Shown: in pieces, positions 18,060 to 25,162 of the stretch | Numbering within the stretch: position 1 is the first letter of the stretch | Layout of the letters: each line of letters opens with the position of its first letter | IMG/VR virus record: IMGVR_UViG_3300034522_000044 | Coordinates: 1-33,223 of that record | Source: a virus | Strand: one strand, 5' to 3' | DNA: 33,223 nucleotides | The notes under the pieces: model-generated | Told to the model about the DNA's origin: nothing | What the model saw: the letters and a program-made list of their open reading frames with translations, nothing else | Database searches by the model: none | Program-made: the position numbers and the translations under genes

Positions 18060-18974
18060 TCAGTGGACAGATAGTAGGTTCCGTTTAAAAATATTTTTCT
18101 TCTCTACTGCATCCCAATATTTCGATGTTTCAACACTGATTTTGGCGTGAGACGCAATCTTTAGCTTTTGAACCTGAGCAGTCAATTTAAGGGGGAATCG
18201 GATTAGAACCTTACCTTCGGCGGTGCGTAAAGCAAGCCTCCCGGTATCTGTAATACCCGCGACACTGCCCTCTATAGTTTCTGGATACTTCTCAGGCTCG
18301 TTCACCGTAGCAAGCAGAGCCCTAACGCGGGTTATCTCGTCAGGTCTGCCTATCCACTCACGAAGTCCCTGATTGGATTGCCACGAGAACTGAACGGCCA
18401 TTCCTGCTTTATCGAGGCCTTTCATAAATTCGCCAAGCTGATGAGCGGAGCGGCCGCCAACCGCATCAACAGCATCATAGAAGTCAGCCGGATCCGAATT
18501 CAATAGGCGGAAGGTTTGATCTAAGGTGGCCTGTAGCAAGCTATCGCCCGTCAGATCAGGGGATGCATTTCCTGTGATGAATACGTGGGTAGAACCTGGT
18601 GCCAAACCAGCCAACTTGAAATTCAAGGCGCTAACCACGTCAGCCGCAACTCCACGTACCGCATCACGACCATAGCGAAGGCGATGAGCAGCTAACTTCC
18701 ACGATCTAGTAAGGGGGCCTATGGTATCAAGGAAGGCATCTACCGGGACGGCACCATTCGCTCGCGGCCCAATTAGACGAACATCAAGCAATTCACCCAA
18801 GGCCGAAACCTGCTCCATGGATGCTTCTCTGAGCGCAGCCTGAGCGGAATCATGCTGATTTTTTGCTGCAAGTTGAAGAAAAAAGTTGCCTGGGTCAGCA
18901 TCTGCCTGAGCCTTGGTTTCAGCAGCAAACTCAGCTAGAGAGTCGGCGTGGTCGCGAAGAAAACTAGTGCTCAT
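18060..18974 (-). CDS. Unknown partner protein of the nucleotidyltransferase
   Basis: 304 residues from MSTSFLRDHADSLAEF; its ATG overlaps the stop of the NTase gene (ATGA), so the two are cotranslated. The N-terminal 60 residues are helical and acidic. The middle holds an alpha/beta segment (RLIGPRANGAVPVDAFLDTI, STHVFITGNASPDLTGDSLL). The C-terminal 70 residues look like a small beta barrel (IEGSVAGITDTGRLALRTAE, GKVLIRFPLKLTAQVQKLKI) ending NIFKRNLLSVH. No signal peptide or membrane helix, so cytoplasmic. No family recognised. The fixed partner and position suggest the effector or substrate-binding half of a two-gene system. Confidence 0.7.
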   Translation of the reverse strand: MSTSFLRDHADSLAEFAAETKAQADADPGNFFLQLAAKNQHDSAQAALREASMEQVSALGELLDVRLIGPRANGAVPVDAFLDTIGPLTRSWKLAAHRLRYGRDAVRGVAADVVSALNFKLAGLAPGSTHVFITGNASPDLTGDSLLQATLDQTFRLLNSDPADFYDAVDAVGGRSAHQLGEFMKGLDKAGMAVQFSWQSNQGLREWIGRPDEITRVRALLATVNEPEKYPETIEGSVAGITDTGRLALRTAEGKVLIRFPLKLTAQVQKLKIASHAKISVETSKYWDAVEKKNIFKRNLLSVH

Positions 18975-19447
18975 AGGGCTATCTCCGCAAATCCTTTGGC
19001 TGTGACTCGATCGTGGCAAAACCCTAGCATACCTCGCCAGTACGCTTCACGATGCAATACCCGATCAGGGGCAGGGCTCTCCATGTAAAAATCTAGGCTG
19101 AAAATGGTTTCCGTATAGGCTCGATCTAGCAGCTTTGACACTTCTGCTTTTACCTGTGGAGTCGCATTTTTTTCGTCTACCCAAGATGGACTCCAGAAAA
19201 TGCAATCAAGATCACTTGGCCCCACCTTTTCAGTAAGAAAGGAGCCGTCAAGCCAGAGTCTGCCTCGGACTCCAGAGGCACGAAGGGTGGTCACCCACAA
19301 TCTGAGCTTCTCGTATAACTCAGTCCTCCGGGAGTCCATTGGGAAAGGCGCTACAGCCAAAGCATGCAGGGTCTCTATAGTCAGGACGTGTATTCCTGGC
19401 TTTAAAAGGGCGGGAAAGTCTGGTTTTTGCATCCAGCAAGATTCCAT
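18971..19447 (-). CDS. Nucleotidyltransferase-fold protein (possible two-gene defence or toxin module)
   Basis: 158 residues (start could also be the ATG at 19432). It carries the Pol-beta-type nucleotidyltransferase signature: LDGSF (67-70 region), then D79-L-D81 in GPSDLDCIFW, and a possible third acid at D119 in FSLDFYME. It resembles DUF6932/MNT-like minimal NTases. Such proteins can add nucleotides to a protein or tRNA, and often act as half of a toxin-antitoxin or abortive-infection pair. The downstream gene overlaps by four bases. The pair is flanked by terminator repeat 3 and a 140-base gap, so it is a separate transcription unit in the lysogen. Confidence 0.75.
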   Translation of the reverse strand: MESCWMQKPDFPALLKPGIHVLTIETLHALAVAPFPMDSRRTELYEKLRLWVTTLRASGVRGRLWLDGSFLTEKVGPSDLDCIFWSPSWVDEKNATPQVKAEVSKLLDRAYTETIFSLDFYMESPAPDRVLHREAYWRGMLGFCHDRVTAKGFAEIAL

Positions 19448-20394: not shown

Positions 20395-21126
20395 CTATAG
20401 CTTTCGAGCGTTCCATACGAGCAGAACGCGAGCTTGGATATGCACCTTGGCGAGCATATCGCCCTCGATCATGATTGCTGGGTACACCGGGTTATCCGAA
20501 ATCATGCGCAGGGAGCCGCCAGTCAGGCGCTGAAGGCGCTTAATAAAAAGCTCGCCCTCCAGCGTGAAGACATAGACCGCATCGGTTCGGATCTCGGTGA
20601 TACCGCGATCCACCAACAGGGCGTCGCCGTTGCGGAATGTGCCCTCCATGCTGTCACCATCGCCATCGATAATGGCCAGGTTCTCTAGCTTGGAATACGA
20701 CAAGCCCTGCGTCTTCAGCCAGTCGAGATGAACGGTAATATCTCTGATTACTTCGATGTGATCAGGCGGCACTCTTCCCGGACCCATTGAGCCGGCCACG
20801 TCCAACTGAGGGATCGTGATGAAGCTGGAATCCTGCGATTTTCGGCGAGATTCAATCGGCACGACATTGCTCTCCTTGATTGCAGGCTGCGCTCCGCCAT
20901 CCGATCCCTTGCGCATCGGCCCCTTTCCAGTAGCCAGCCACATCGGCATCACCTTGAGATAGTCGGCGGCGATCAAAAGATTCTGCCCCTCAATCGTCTT
21001 GGTTTTCCCTGAAATCCAGTCGTTTACAGATGGCGCTCGAATCCCGCAGGCGCGGGCCAGCGCGGCCTGCGTAACCTTTGGCGGGCCTGCCATCGCCAGT
21101 TTTAGCCGTTCTTGAAGTGTCCTCAT
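20395..21126 (-). CDS. cI: CI-like phage repressor (HTH plus S24 peptidase)
   Basis: 243 residues. N-terminal HTH (QERLKLAMAG, TQAALARACGIRAPSVNDWI) binds the operators. A linker precedes the self-cleavage site Ala111-Gly112 (DVAGSMG). The S24 peptidase dyad is Ser159 (GDGDSMEG) and Lys196 (ELFIKRLQ). RecA filaments would trigger cleavage and induction. The start codon lies only 22 bases from a possible weak -10 (TTAGAT, 21153-21148) and has no ribosome site, resembling the nearly leaderless lambda cI message. Its promoter is covered by the three OR sites, so autoregulation is expected. It is followed by the small paralogues in the same transcript. Confidence 0.95.
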   Translation of the reverse strand: MRTLQERLKLAMAGPPKVTQAALARACGIRAPSVNDWISGKTKTIEGQNLLIAADYLKVMPMWLATGKGPMRKGSDGGAQPAIKESNVVPIESRRKSQDSSFITIPQLDVAGSMGPGRVPPDHIEVIRDITVHLDWLKTQGLSYSKLENLAIIDGDGDSMEGTFRNGDALLVDRGITEIRTDAVYVFTLEGELFIKRLQRLTGGSLRMISDNPVYPAIMIEGDMLAKVHIQARVLLVWNARKL

Positions 21127-21163: not shown

Positions 21164-21192
21164 TTGACCCAAATAAAAGGTATGCCTAATAT
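21164..21192 (+). promoter_or_regulatory. PR promoter
   Basis: -35 TTGACC (21164-21169), 17-base spacer, -10 TAATAT (21187-21192). Transcription would start near 21199, 27 bases before cro. Mirrors PL in sequence and operator placement. Confidence 0.9.
21177..21188. promoter_or_regulatory. Repressor operator OR, PR-proximal
   Basis: AAGGTATGCCTA, close to consensus, overlapping the PR -10. Expected to be the main site for shutting off Cro and replication genes. Confidence 0.8.
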
Positions 21193-21225: not shown

Positions 21226-21420
21226 ATGAACCCAAATGAAATTATTGACGCTCTTGGTGGCACTTTCCGTGTCGCCGAGCTGTGTGAAGTTCGGCCTCCA
21301 TCGGTAAGCGATTGGAGGAAACACGGGATCCCAAGGGCCCGGATGATGTTTTTGCGCATCGCCAGGCCAGATGTTTTCAAGGAGCTGGACGCCCCGGGCA
21401 CGAAGAAAACAGCCGCCTGA
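21226..21420 (+). CDS. cro: Cro-like repressor
   Basis: 64 residues. A compact HTH fills it: MNPNEIIDALGGTFRVAELC then EVRPPSVSDWRKHGIPRARM and a helix to FKEL. First gene after PR and divergent from cI, the classical cro position. It would bind the same operators and favour the lytic side by lowering cI and tuning early transcription. Confidence 0.85.
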   Translation: MNPNEIIDALGGTFRVAELCEVRPPSVSDWRKHGIPRARMMFLRIARPDVFKELDAPGTKKTAA

Positions 21421-21502
21421 CATCCCTGTCCGCCGCTCCATTGAGCAAATGATCGCCTCTGCACCCGCAGGGCGCCACGTAAAGAATTTCGAGGTTTTAG
21501 GT

Positions 21503-21925
21503 ATGCAGGATTTTCTGAGGGCTTGCGACACCTCCGTCGAAGAGGCGAATACCAAGAATCTCGCCACGTTGATGAGCATGCCGCCGGTGAGCTTGCTCCA
21601 GCGCGCCAACGCGAACTACGACGGTGCTTGGTTCAACGTGAAGCATCTGTACTCCCTGCTCCTGCATACAGAGGACATGCGTCCATTGGCGGCGCTGGCT
21701 GGCGAGTTCGGTTATTCGATCGTTAAGACCGACCAGCCTATGGCTATCGACATTCATCACGCACTGGGGCGCGCAACGCTGGAGTTTGCAGAAGTTACCG
21801 TCGAGACGCATGCGGCGATGGCTGATGGGCGAGTTGATCAGGTCGAGCGCGCCCGGATTCTGCGTGAGATAGATCACGCCGAGAGCGCCCTGGCTCAGCT
21901 GAAAGCCTCTGTGAAGGTTGCCTGA
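21503..21925 (+). CDS. CII-like phage regulatory protein
   Basis: 140 residues from ATG at 21503 with GAGG upstream; the frame continues further back into cro but without a better start. The segment MPPVSLLQRANANYDGAWFN, then LYSLLLHTEDMRPLAALAGE and FGYSIV resembles the Phage_CP76/CII family: a DNA-binding helical head followed by a helical tail. Second gene of PR, as with lambda cII. It may activate the repressor or int promoters. Family membership is by pattern; the role is inferred from position. Confidence 0.65.
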   Translation: MQDFLRACDTSVEEANTKNLATLMSMPPVSLLQRANANYDGAWFNVKHLYSLLLHTEDMRPLAALAGEFGYSIVKTDQPMAIDIHHALGRATLEFAEVTVETHAAMADGRVDQVERARILREIDHAESALAQLKASVKVA

Positions 21926-21994: not shown

Positions 21995-22336
21995 ATGCAC
22001 CAACACACCGAATCGATCAATAGCCCCAACATTCCCGCGCCACGTTTTTCGCAACCTGAAAACGTGGCGCGCAATTCCTCAGTGATTCCGTTCGACTTCG
22101 ACGGCGCCGCAATCCGGGTCATCACCGGCAAGCTCGGCGATCCGTGGTTTATCGCGCGTGACGTCGCCGACGCCCTGGGCTACTCCAAGCCAGAGAACGC
22201 CGTGTCCCGTCATTGCAAGGCTGCGACCACTACCCCGAAACAGGGTGGTGGTTTCATGACCATCATCCCGGAGACGCAGCCTCACTGGTATGTGGATCGC
22301 TTCCTTGAATTGGCCGCTAAGGTCGGGAAGGCCTGA
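21995..22336 (+). CDS. Truncated Bro-N domain protein
   Basis: 113 residues. Residues about 30-92 (VIPFDFDGAAIRVITGKLGD, PWFIARDVADALGYSKPENA, VSRHCKAATTTPK) are a Bro-N domain, normally the N-terminal DNA-binding part of phage antirepressors of about 250 residues. It stops after GGGFMTIIPE and ends with an unrelated 20-residue tail (TQPHWYVDRFLELAAKVGKA), so the usual C-terminal domain is lost. It may work as a DNA-binding domain alone, or be a decayed antirepressor. Stop and next start are one base apart. Confidence 0.75.
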   Translation: MHQHTESINSPNIPAPRFSQPENVARNSSVIPFDFDGAAIRVITGKLGDPWFIARDVADALGYSKPENAVSRHCKAATTTPKQGGGFMTIIPETQPHWYVDRFLELAAKVGKA

Positions 22337-22337
22337 C

Positions 22338-23315
22338 ATGCAATACACCGTCACGATTAACCAGGTGAAGGCGCTGGAGTGGGGGCTGAATTCTCAGCAG
22401 GCCCTGCTGTTCGCCTTCGTCTACGGCTGCCCGAGCTGGACCAAGCCACTCAAGACTGATGACGGGATCTTCTTCGCGCTGAGCAAGGCCAAGATCATCG
22501 AGGAGCTGCCGCTGCTCACTGATAAGCCGGACACCGCTTACCGCATGCTGAAGGCCCTAGAAGAGGCCGGTTTGATTGAGCTTTCCAGCACGTCGAACAT
22601 CACGCTTTTTCGCTTGACCGAGAAGGCCGTCGAGTGGAACCAGAAGCTCGACGGGTCGGAAAAATATCCGACCCCACCAAACAACAAGGGTCGGAAAAAA
22701 ATCCGATCTACCTCGGATAAATCTCCGAGCAAGGTCGGAAAAAAATCCGAGCAAGGGTCGGAAAAATCTCCGACAAATCAGGATACCAATCATCAGGGTA
22801 CCAATCAGGACACCAGTCAGGACTTGCAGGACGCCACCGGCAAGCCGGCTCAGTCCCGCGGCTTGGTGCTGATGGTTGATCGCACCGATGCCCCACGGGT
22901 TGAGATCCCCGCCGACATGCCGGGCCCCAAAGACCAGACCTGCAAAACCTTCAAGGTCTGGGCGAACTACGCCATGGCTTACCGCAAACGCTACGGCGCC
23001 TGGCCGGTGTGGAACGCCAAGGTCGGCGGCCAGCTCGGTCAGTTGGTCGACCGGCTCGGTGCCGATGTCGCTCACCACGTCGCCGCTCACTTCCTGAAAA
23101 CCAGCGACGCCGCCGTCCTGCGCAAGTGCCACAGCCTCAACGAACTGCTGGCCAACGCCGAGAGTTACCACACCCAGTGGGTCACCGGACAGCGCGTCAA
23201 CGGCACAACCGCCCGCCAGATGGAACGGACTGAGGCAAACCTCTCCGCAGCCGAACAGGCCGCCCAGATGGTTTTGGCCAAACGCCAAGCAGGTGACCGC
23301 AATGAATACCTTTGA
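22338..23315 (+). CDS. O-like replication initiator containing the origin
   Basis: 325 residues from MQYTVTINQVKALEWGLNSQ. The N-terminal 105 residues form winged-helix DNA-binding sequence (KIIEELPLLTDKPDTAYRML, KALEEAGLIELSS, NITLFRLTEKAVEW). A low-complexity linker (about 107-165) is coded by iteron DNA. The C-terminal domain (VWANYAMAYRKRYGAWPVWN, GQLGQLVDRLG) would contact the helicase loader. This is the layout of lambda O, with ori inside the gene. Start 22338 lies one base after the previous stop. Confidence 0.8.
   Translation: MQYTVTINQVKALEWGLNSQQALLFAFVYGCPSWTKPLKTDDGIFFALSKAKIIEELPLLTDKPDTAYRMLKALEEAGLIELSSTSNITLFRLTEKAVEWNQKLDGSEKYPTPPNNKGRKKIRSTSDKSPSKVGKKSEQGSEKSPTNQDTNHQGTNQDTSQDLQDATGKPAQSRGLVLMVDRTDAPRVEIPADMPGPKDQTCKTFKVWANYAMAYRKRYGAWPVWNAKVGGQLGQLVDRLGADVAHHVAAHFLKTSDAAVLRKCHSLNELLANAESYHTQWVTGQRVNGTTARQMERTEANLSAAEQAAQMVLAKRQAGDRNEYL
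22656..22773 (+). repeat. Five origin iterons inside the initiator gene
   Basis: Five 16-bp copies of TCGGA-6N-TCCGA with an AT-rich centre, at 22656, 22691, 22713, 22735 and 22758. The last four are spaced 22, 22 and 23 bp, about two helical turns, so initiator dimers would sit on one face. Each is itself an inverted repeat, like lambda ori iterons. Predicted replication origin. Confidence 0.8.
22779..22823 (+). repeat. Short direct repeats next to the iterons
   Basis: CAGGATACCAAT, CAGGGTACCAAT and CAGGACACCAGT follow each other at 15- and 12-base steps, then CAGGAC. They code for a QDTN-like repeat in the linker. They may be part of the origin or merely a coding microsatellite. Confidence 0.5.
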
Positions 23316-24099
23316 AATGAATGACCAGCAGGTTGCCGGGCTGGCCGCCGCCATCTGCGCCACAGCCGAGGCCATGGGCCAGGAAATGAACCCGGGCACT
23401 GCCGCGATGATGGCCGAAGACCTCTGTGCCTACCCGGTGCACGTCGTGAAGGCGGCGCTGAAGGCGTGTCGCTTCGAAGTGAAGGGAAAGCTGGCGATGG
23501 CCGACATCCTGCAACGGGTCCAATCCTCCGATGGCCGGCCGGGCAAGGACGAGGCCTGGGCTATCGCCATGACGACCAACGATGAATTCGAAACGGTGGT
23601 GCTGACCGACGAGATCCAGCTGGCACTTGCTGCTGCGAAACCCATTCTGGATGGCGGCGACAAAATCGGTGCGCGCATGGCGTTCATCGACGCTTACCAA
23701 AGGTTCGTGGGCCAGGCTCGCGAGGATGCGAAACCGGTCAACTGGCACGTGTCCGTGGGCTTTGACGCCAACCGACGGATCCAGGCTGTGACCAAAGCGA
23801 TGGAGCTGAAACGCATCCCGCGAGAACACGCACAGAAGTACCTGGCGGACCTGAGTGTCGAGCCGATCAACGAGGATGGTCGGGCTATCGCGGGCTTGCT
23901 AACCGGCACCGTTACGCGGCCAGCGCCGGCGCTTCGCCATAAGCTCGAACTGGTGAGGAACTCCATGCTGGAGATGCGTAAGGCCAGTGCCGAGAGGAAA
24001 ACCGAAATGCGGATTGATGCAGCGAATGAGTTGGCTGATCGCCGAGCGCTGCTAATCAAGCAGGCCCGAGAGCTGGAAGCGAAGAGGGCGGCACAATGA
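23302..24099 (+). CDS. Replication-associated protein, possible helicase loader
   Basis: 265 residues from ATG at 23302 with AGGTGA 5 bases upstream; it overlaps the initiator gene by 14 bases. The N-terminal half (MAEDLCAYPVHVVKAALKAC, ILQRVQSSDGRPGKDEAWAI) and the middle (GDKIGARMAFIDAYQRFVGQ) are helical. The C-terminus is a charged coiled coil (NSMLEMRKASAERKTEMRID). It occupies the position of lambda P, after O. No AAA+ Walker motif is seen, so a P-type adaptor loader fits better than a DnaC type. Inferred from position only. Confidence 0.6.
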   Translation: MNTFEMNDQQVAGLAAAICATAEAMGQEMNPGTAAMMAEDLCAYPVHVVKAALKACRFEVKGKLAMADILQRVQSSDGRPGKDEAWAIAMTTNDEFETVVLTDEIQLALAAAKPILDGGDKIGARMAFIDAYQRFVGQAREDAKPVNWHVSVGFDANRRIQAVTKAMELKRIPREHAQKYLADLSVEPINEDGRAIAGLLTGTVTRPAPALRHKLELVRNSMLEMRKASAERKTEMRIDAANELADRRALLIKQARELEAKRAAQ

Positions 24100-24566
24100 C
24101 CGACAAGATCAGCGTCAACTGCCAGGCCAAGCTCTCCGAAGTCATTACCAAAATCAGCGCCATGTACAAAGACAAGAAGTTTGTCGTGGTGACCCTGCGC
24201 CCGGGCAAGGACCGCACCCTCGACCAGAACCGGCTGTGGTTCGGGATGTACAAGCGAATAGCCGAAATGACCCAGATTGGCGACGCGGCGGACGCCCGGC
24301 GCTACTGCAAGCTGCACTTTGGCGTGCAGATATTGCTTAACGAAGACGCTGGGTTCCAGGCCGAGTGGTACCGGGTTATGCGTCATCTGCCCTACGAAAC
24401 GAAGCTGGCCATGATGGGCGAGTGTCATTTGTTTGGCCCTGATGGCTTCCCTGTGACCAGCCTGTTTAACCGTGCCCAGGGCATCGCTTACACCGACCGC
24501 ATTGCAGCCTACTTCACGGGCCAAGGTGTGGTTTTTACTGATCTACTCAGCAAGGAGGCTGCATGA
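24096..24566 (+). CDS. NinB-like recombination protein
   Basis: 156 residues. The segment KFVVVTLRPGKDRTLDQNRL then WFGMYKRIAEM resembles the conserved RSLDQNRKLW region of NinB (Orf), a single-strand DNA-binding recombination mediator. It lies right before NinG, the same order as in the lambda nin region. Starts with a four-base overlap. The middle diverges from lambda NinB, so the call is tentative. Confidence 0.65.
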   Translation: MTDKISVNCQAKLSEVITKISAMYKDKKFVVVTLRPGKDRTLDQNRLWFGMYKRIAEMTQIGDAADARRYCKLHFGVQILLNEDAGFQAEWYRVMRHLPYETKLAMMGECHLFGPDGFPVTSLFNRAQGIAYTDRIAAYFTGQGVVFTDLLSKEAA

Positions 24567-25162
24567 TCGCCAAGCAACCCAAACCGAAGAAATGCAAGAA
24601 CCCAGCGTGCGGCATCAGCTTTCCGCCGCAGCGCCTCGGACAGGCCGTATGCAGCCCGAAGTGTGGCCTGGCAATCAAGGACGTAAATCAGACGAAGGCG
24701 CGTAAGTCTCTGGCTCAAGTTGAGCGGCGCGAGATCAAAGTCCGCAAGGAGAAGCTGAAGAGCAGGGCGGATCACCTGCGCGAAGCCCAGGCGGCGGTGA
24801 ATGAATACGTGCGTCTCCGTGACGCGCACCTGCCCTGCATCAGCTGCGACTTCACGCCGAACGATAACGACCTCATGACTGGCAGCCGGTGGGACGCCGG
24901 GCACTATCGATCCGTCGGCGCCTGCCCGGAGCTGCGCTTCGAGCCTCTGAACATCCACCGCCAGTGTGTGAAGTGCAACCGCAATCTTTCCGGCAATGCC
25001 GTGGAGTACCGCATCCGCCTGGTGCAGCGCATCGGCGCCGAGAAGGTGGTCTGGCTGGAAGGTCTGCACCCAGCCTGCAAGTACACCGTGGAAGAGATCA
25101 AGGCCATCAAGGCCAAATACCGGGCAATGACCAGAGAGCTGAAAAAAGGGGAAGCCGCATGA
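24563..25162 (+). CDS. ninG: NinG (Rap) recombination endonuclease
   Basis: 199 residues. An N-terminal zinc knuckle (Cys11, Cys16, Cys30, Cys34 in KCKNPACGISFPP and VCSPKCG) precedes a long basic helix (RREIKVRKEKLKSRADHLRE). The core LPCISCDF, WDAGHYRSVGACPELRFEPL and NIHRQCVKCNRNLSGN is diagnostic of lambda NinG/Rap, a structure-specific endonuclease acting on recombination joints. Overlaps both neighbours by four bases, so it is tightly coupled. Firm family call. Confidence 0.93.
   Translation: MIAKQPKPKKCKNPACGISFPPQRLGQAVCSPKCGLAIKDVNQTKARKSLAQVERREIKVRKEKLKSRADHLREAQAAVNEYVRLRDAHLPCISCDFTPNDNDLMTGSRWDAGHYRSVGACPELRFEPLNIHRQCVKCNRNLSGNAVEYRIRLVQRIGAEKVVWLEGLHPACKYTVEEIKAIKAKYRAMTRELKKGEAA

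Follow-up and report, generated by a model that had tools for sequence, protein, structure and literature searches.

A putative replication origin within the initiator gene of a temperate Pseudomonas phage, and nuclease chimeras that may be directed against such origins

The virus record analysed here (the window, 33,223 bases, with Pseudomonas phages and prophages as its nearest relatives) carries at positions 22656-22823 a segment that is very probably the origin from which a temperate Pseudomonas phage replicates. The segment lies within the gene of the phage's own initiator, the N-terminal domain of which would bind the iterons. This assignment draws on the sequence, on a predicted structure and on known origins. 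By analogy with lambda O (PMC7466680) and with pSK41 RepA (PMC5703833), we infer that iteron binding, melting, helicase recruitment and the start of replication take place at this segment. The N-terminal winged helix would bind five palindromic iterons, probably in the form of dimers set about two helical turns apart, and the initiator would wrap and bend the iteron A-tracts. The adjoining AT-richer repeat tract would melt, and the C-domain would then recruit the machinery for helicase loading. As at lambda ori, transcription from the rightward early promoter may assist. The preliminary description had proposed a lambda-type origin inside the initiator gene, and the layout supports it: iterons about 22 bp apart, an AT-richer tract, a linker and the gene order.

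The gene order of the early region is cI-cro-cII-O-(P)-ninB-ninG, with the following features in the window:

20395-21126, minus strand: cI
21164-21192, plus strand: promoter-like site TTGACC-17-TAATAT, 5' of the cro-like gene, a consensus match only (1 found against 0.8 expected)
21226-21420: cro-like gene
21371-21925: CII-like gene
21995-22336: Bro-N protein
22338-23315, plus strand: O-like replication initiator, 325 aa, ATG at 22338
22338-22649, plus strand: N-terminal winged-helix domain, aa 1-104, predicted to bind the iterons (structure model, alignment)
22773-22823, plus strand: presumed unwinding tract of AATCAGGATACC-like direct repeats, GC 0.48 against 0.59 for the gene
22890-23312, plus strand: helical domain at the C-terminus, aa 185-325, with a presumed role in recruiting the helicase machinery (model, sequence comparison)
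23302-24099, plus strand: gene in the lambda P position, PHROG 6028 (no assigned function), alternative GTG start at 23293
24096-24566: NinB-like gene
24563-25162: NinG

The initiator matches PHROG 11527 (E 1e-187) and PHROG 391 'replication initiation O-like' (E 1e-21). It is 76.9% identical to a gene of phage Medea1 and 71.4% identical to the 'replication protein' of phiAH14a; Pfam and NCBIfam searches with it gave no informative match. In the predicted structure, the winged helix spans approximately residues 8-101 (pLDDT about 81-94 over 11-100), and the alignment places the invariant or near-invariant residues K63, D65, T66, Y68 and R69 in the predicted recognition helix. Between the winged helix and the helical C-domain, residues 117-199 are predicted to be disordered (pLDDT < 50), in agreement with the earlier placement of the iterons in a low-complexity linker. 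The C-domain is common to initiators with other N-domains and other origins. The gene in the lambda P position gave a helical model without a match among solved PDB folds and has no detectable relation to helicase loaders, a point that counts against the origin. The site at 21164-21192 is a candidate for the rightward early promoter, which would transcribe the origin. A gene pair on the minus strand (18060-19447), on the side of the early region where cI lies, matches the PADLOC candidate defence PDC-M63A/B.

The array consists of five perfect palindromes of the form TCGGA-N6-TCCGA, all in the linker of the initiator gene:

22656-22671, plus strand: iteron 1, TCGGAAAAATATCCGA, frame 0, read as SEKYPT
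22691-22706, plus strand: iteron 2, TCGGAAAAAAATCCGA, frame 2, read as GRKKIR
22713-22728, plus strand: iteron 3, TCGGATAAATCTCCGA, frame 0, read as SDKSPS
22735-22750, plus strand: iteron 4, TCGGAAAAAAATCCGA, frame 1, read as VGKKSE
22758-22773, plus strand: iteron 5, TCGGAAAAATCTCCGA, frame 0, read as SEKSPT

Their start-to-start spacing is 35, 22, 22 and 23 bp, and hence four of them lie at 22-23 bp from each other. The preliminary description had given the same five 16-bp inverted repeats, this spacing, short direct repeats after them and the bounds of the segment, all of which are correct. The five copies are the only exact matches in the whole window. With up to one mismatch, the pattern occurs 6 times against 0.97 expected, and none of 100 shuffles reaches 6. 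A search near the array found no DnaA box; lambda ori is not known to need one. A text search of openly licensed papers returned no description of the TCGGA iteron sequences. The palindromes might instead be transcription terminators or RNA hairpins, and three weak terminator-like sites do lie in the array, on the minus strand. However, such sites occur at the rate of shuffled sequences (4 found in the region, mean 3.2), and termination would leave unexplained both the spacing of about two helical turns and the pairing with one DNA-binding domain. We find this explanation scarcely credible.

The direct repeats after iteron 5, presumed to be the unwinding tract of the origin, start at 22773, have a unit of 12-15 bp and extend to approximately 22819. 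The least stable 50-mer around the array is at 22761-22810, and 1.7% of the window is less stable. The tract beside the iterons is moderately AT-rich in the window (GC 0.48) and strongly so in relatives (GC about 0.22; 0.21-0.24 in the aligned tract of distant relatives, i.e., 76-79% A+T). The moderate value, in a phage that is itself GC-rich, is another point against the origin. Synonymous diversity in the repeat tract is 0.12 of expectation (95 genes). Short direct repeats rich in A+T or purines also directly follow the last iteron in pSK41 (L436, 13616-13800), lambda (L435, 635-760), L119 and L124. These are often GATACT/ATTACA-like across unrelated initiators (RepA_N, lambda O and HTH_36 types), and short post-iteron repeats may be a feature common to the unwinding tracts of unrelated initiators.

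Selection acts strongly on the DNA of the array, and not on the peptide. If the repeats were a mere low-complexity linker of SEKSPT-like peptides, the likeness of the DNA would be due to the peptide, and the linker is indeed of low complexity and predicted to be disordered. However, the iteron motif is read in all three frames, giving unrelated peptides, and 20,000 synonymous recodings of the same protein with the gene's own codon usage produced at most 2 of the 5 iterons (mean 0.027). We then compared 95 distinct genes, at least 85% identical. The ratio of synonymous diversity to expectation is 0.0046 in the iteron codons, against 0.44 in the N-domain and 0.54 in the C-domain. This is around 100-fold below the rest of the gene, and in 20,000 draws no random set of codons fell to this value. 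Over most of the array, the residues encoded by the same genes show less conservation than those of the N- and C-domains. Iteron 1 keeps each of the codons TCG, GAA, AAA, TAT and CCG in 43 of 43 genes, with adjacent codons free to vary. Synonymous sites are frozen and amino acids drift, which already contradicts the explanation by the peptide and leaves it a negligible probability. The comparison of iteron bases with the encoded linker, proposed earlier as a check, is thus decisive, and these results bear out the idea that the coding sequence was bent to hold the repeats. Five iterons are present in 117 of 121 full-length relatives and the spacing is identical in 116 of the 121, keeping in mind that these are mostly Pseudomonas phages and not independent samples.

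The N-domain and the TCGGA iterons are near-obligately paired and, judging from their distribution, move together as an exchanged module. When the search started from the protein, using a distant N-domain profile, 62 of 68 non-redundant relatives had at least two iterons in the gene. One other (L386) has four iterons just past a frameshift, and the remaining five include one diverged and one reduced case, one iteron-free gene and two short linker-less ORFs. When it started from the DNA, using iteron pairs in IMG/VR, the N-domain was found beside the iterons in 111 of 120 loci; eight of the other loci are at the end of the sequence examined, and the ninth has a divergent N-domain. All 124 genes with a window-type N-domain have TCGGA iterons, against none of 19 Pseudomonas genes with a similar C-domain (48-97% identical to the window's) and a different N-domain. 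In those inspected, the linker holds other repeats in place of the TCGGA iterons. Homology to the window restarts just past the repeat tract in genes with a swapped N-domain, mostly at 22844-22905.

Phages of Pseudomonas (F116 among them), Psychrobacter, Mannheimia, Pseudoalteromonas and Flavobacterium have the pair of N-domain and iterons, as do Parabacteroides phages, with slight alterations, and a Leptotrichia plasmid; the C-domains differ among these taxa. The plasmid, NZ_AP019843.1 of Leptotrichia wadei (L267, 29.6 kb), encodes the N-domain with four related iterons, some of which lack one base, and a tract very rich in A+T comes after them; it is possibly a phage-plasmid. Stand-alone N-domain ORFs of 106-110 aa, without linker or iterons, overlap the 5' end of the lambda O-like gene that follows in L432 (2001-2318) and L434 (2001-2330); these may be regulators or competitors.

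The iterons could also be operators, the winged-helix protein being mainly a regulator of transcription that uses the array for repression or autoregulation. The resemblance of the N-domain to the winged helices of regulators is in line with this, and a dimeric regulator would fit palindromic sites. However, the sites are intragenic, about 320 bp past the gene start, they are nearly always in the initiator linker, and a conserved AT-richer repeat tract adjoins them. Moreover, no promoter-like site was found at the array. The next-door genes in relatives encode a DnaB-like helicase, a P-like loader, a primase/helicase-like protein or PHROG 6028, and the first three are also at odds with operators. 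We give operators a slim chance and favor a replication origin.

Around 50 related Pseudomonas phage loci have a window-type N-domain, 69-96% identical to that of the window, fused to an HNH nuclease instead of the iteron linker. In four chimeras, the nuclease half matches PF01844 HNH (E 1e-10 to 1e-11). When IMG/VR was scanned with this half, 47 Pseudomonas-type phage loci with the same HNH were retrieved, nearly all with an intact N-domain fused to it. The chimera loci are:

L562-L608, L120 (1949-2548), L122, L131 (1928-2515), L124 and L561: window-type N-domain fused to HNH nuclease

Among the loci listed, the initiator that follows has a different N-domain, its start overlaps the stop codon of the chimera, and there is no TCGGA iteron. 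The 46 whole viral records with a chimera, some of which are fragments, contain a single stray match with a GC-rich centre, which is not an iteron, and no iteron pair was found in 13 host genomes carrying the chimera. The chimera is absent from 45 records with a window-type origin, one of which has a more distant HNH protein. Reciprocal chimeras, i.e., the N-domain of another initiator fused to HNH in window-type phages, were not found. A search of openly licensed papers found no account of an HNH nuclease fused to the initiator domain of a phage.

We considered that N-domain copies 5' of other initiators could be remnants, and dropped this idea given the intact HNH fusions under purifying selection. 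Among 49 full-length chimeras, 44 are distinct. The recognition helix LLTDKPDTAYR is exact in 39 of these 44, the other five differing by one residue in or next to the motif, and only one chimera, a D-Y variant, departs from the histidine-asparagine pattern of HNH. The median dN/dS is 0.10 in the DNA-binding half and 0.09 in the HNH half. Hence, the kept motifs and the low dN/dS in both halves indicate that chimeras are maintained proteins, not debris. In two derivatives, L560 and L597, most of the DNA-binding domain is gone.

In chimera loci, homology to the window gene stops at 22382-22645 (median 22583) and restarts at 22843-22905, so that the replaced interval always takes out the iterons. 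The insert (median 796 bp) comprises the nuclease, a new initiator N-domain and a new origin, and this geometry fits homing. In a tree resting on 80 columns, chimera N-domains are scattered among initiator N-domains, with 21 changes, at least 6 of which are forced by supported branches. Nucleotide identity between chimera and initiator N-domains reaches 100% over 240 bases.

From these sequence patterns and the analogy with a known nuclease discussed below, we infer that the chimera is an origin-directed, possibly homing, nuclease against window-like origins. Its targets are likely other temperate phages, including that of the window. That competing Pseudomonas phages carry an origin-directed homing nuclease aimed at the window-type origin is a serious possibility, to which we assign slightly less than even chances. 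The chimera would bind TCGGA iterons through its captured N-domain and cut the origin of a rival. Repair across the common flanks (N-domain and C-domain) would swap the iteron segment for the nuclease, another N-domain and another origin, and after each conversion the N-domain of the victim would become the DNA-binding part of the new nuclease. The scatter in the tree and the stretch of complete identity are as expected if conversions capture the victim's N-domain, or if recombination repeatedly refreshes the domain. Two further arrangements involve HNH proteins. In L558 (2084-2497, genome G286), and similarly in L621, an HNH protein with a cysteine-rich N-terminus is encoded directly 5' of a window-type initiator. 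In L559 (1889-2380, genome G397), a different winged helix is joined to the same kind of HNH directly 5' of a third type of initiator, and because of this the origin-directed chimeras may be a general theme.

These results provide a quantitative case of a coding sequence shaped by the putative origin embedded in it, and of one iteron and its recognition domain conserved between phyla as their surroundings all change. With the HNH chimeras, the long-standing problem of why temperate phages keep exchanging replication modules becomes testable: they suggest direct attack on origins by competitors, and the attack itself may drive the module swap.

The closest analogy is with lambda ori and the lambdoid Stx phages (PMC7466680), which likewise have iterons followed by an AT-rich tract in the initiator linker. 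In lambda the iterons are at 635, 655, 679 and 702 of L435, with a spacing of 20-24 bp. Lambda O likewise has an N-domain for binding and a separate C-domain, and the early gene order is alike. However, lambda iterons are of the ATCCCTCAAA type, against TCGGA-N6-TCCGA in the window, and lambda P has no detectable relation to the gene in its position in the window. The window initiator has no match to PF04492 (Phage_rep_O) at E 0.1, whereas lambda O itself scores 123 bits. PF04492 is also absent among the 25 families listed for 30 members, and hhalign against the lambda O family gives a probability of 1%. By analogy, the window origin would work like lambda ori; its N-domain is not filed as a lambda O protein because it matches neither PF04492 nor PF06970.

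The N-domain gave only weak winged-helix matches when its profile was searched against the PDB by sequence. Its top three Foldseek matches are RepA_N domains of staphylococcal plasmid initiators (4pql, 4pt7; probability 1.00, E 3e-3, TM-score 0.47-0.49 by target length). It has no Pfam match to RepA_N (PF06970), and hhalign is not significant (probability 2.6%, E 0.018). The profile comparisons used small families assembled by hand, since the pSK41 RepA query of IMG/VR found no relative and the lambda O query only near-identical copies. Like the window, the RepA_N plasmid pSK41 has repeats of about 22 bp in the middle of rep, followed by AT-rich direct repeats, and in the staphylococcal plasmid pPR9 the N-domain and origin were swapped as a block (PMC5703833). 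The window iterons are inverted repeats converging on an A-tract inside the initiator gene, as are RepA_N iterons (PMC7145576), and the C-domain of RepA_N initiators, specific to the host genus, is a further likeness. The iterons themselves differ from those of RepA_N plasmids, and the window origin sits in a phage early operon.

Finally, the chimeras resemble Odn of phage ICP1, which joins the DNA-binding domain of an initiator to a GIY-YIG nuclease and cleaves the origin of PLE, a satellite (PMC8263062); other Odn-like genes that would act on satellites have been proposed (PMC10448857). In both cases an initiator DNA-binding domain and a nuclease are combined in an element whose own origin differs. 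The Pseudomonas chimeras have an HNH instead of a GIY-YIG nuclease and a different initiator domain and, unlike Odn, they lie directly 5' of the swapped initiator and would target temperate phages rather than satellites.
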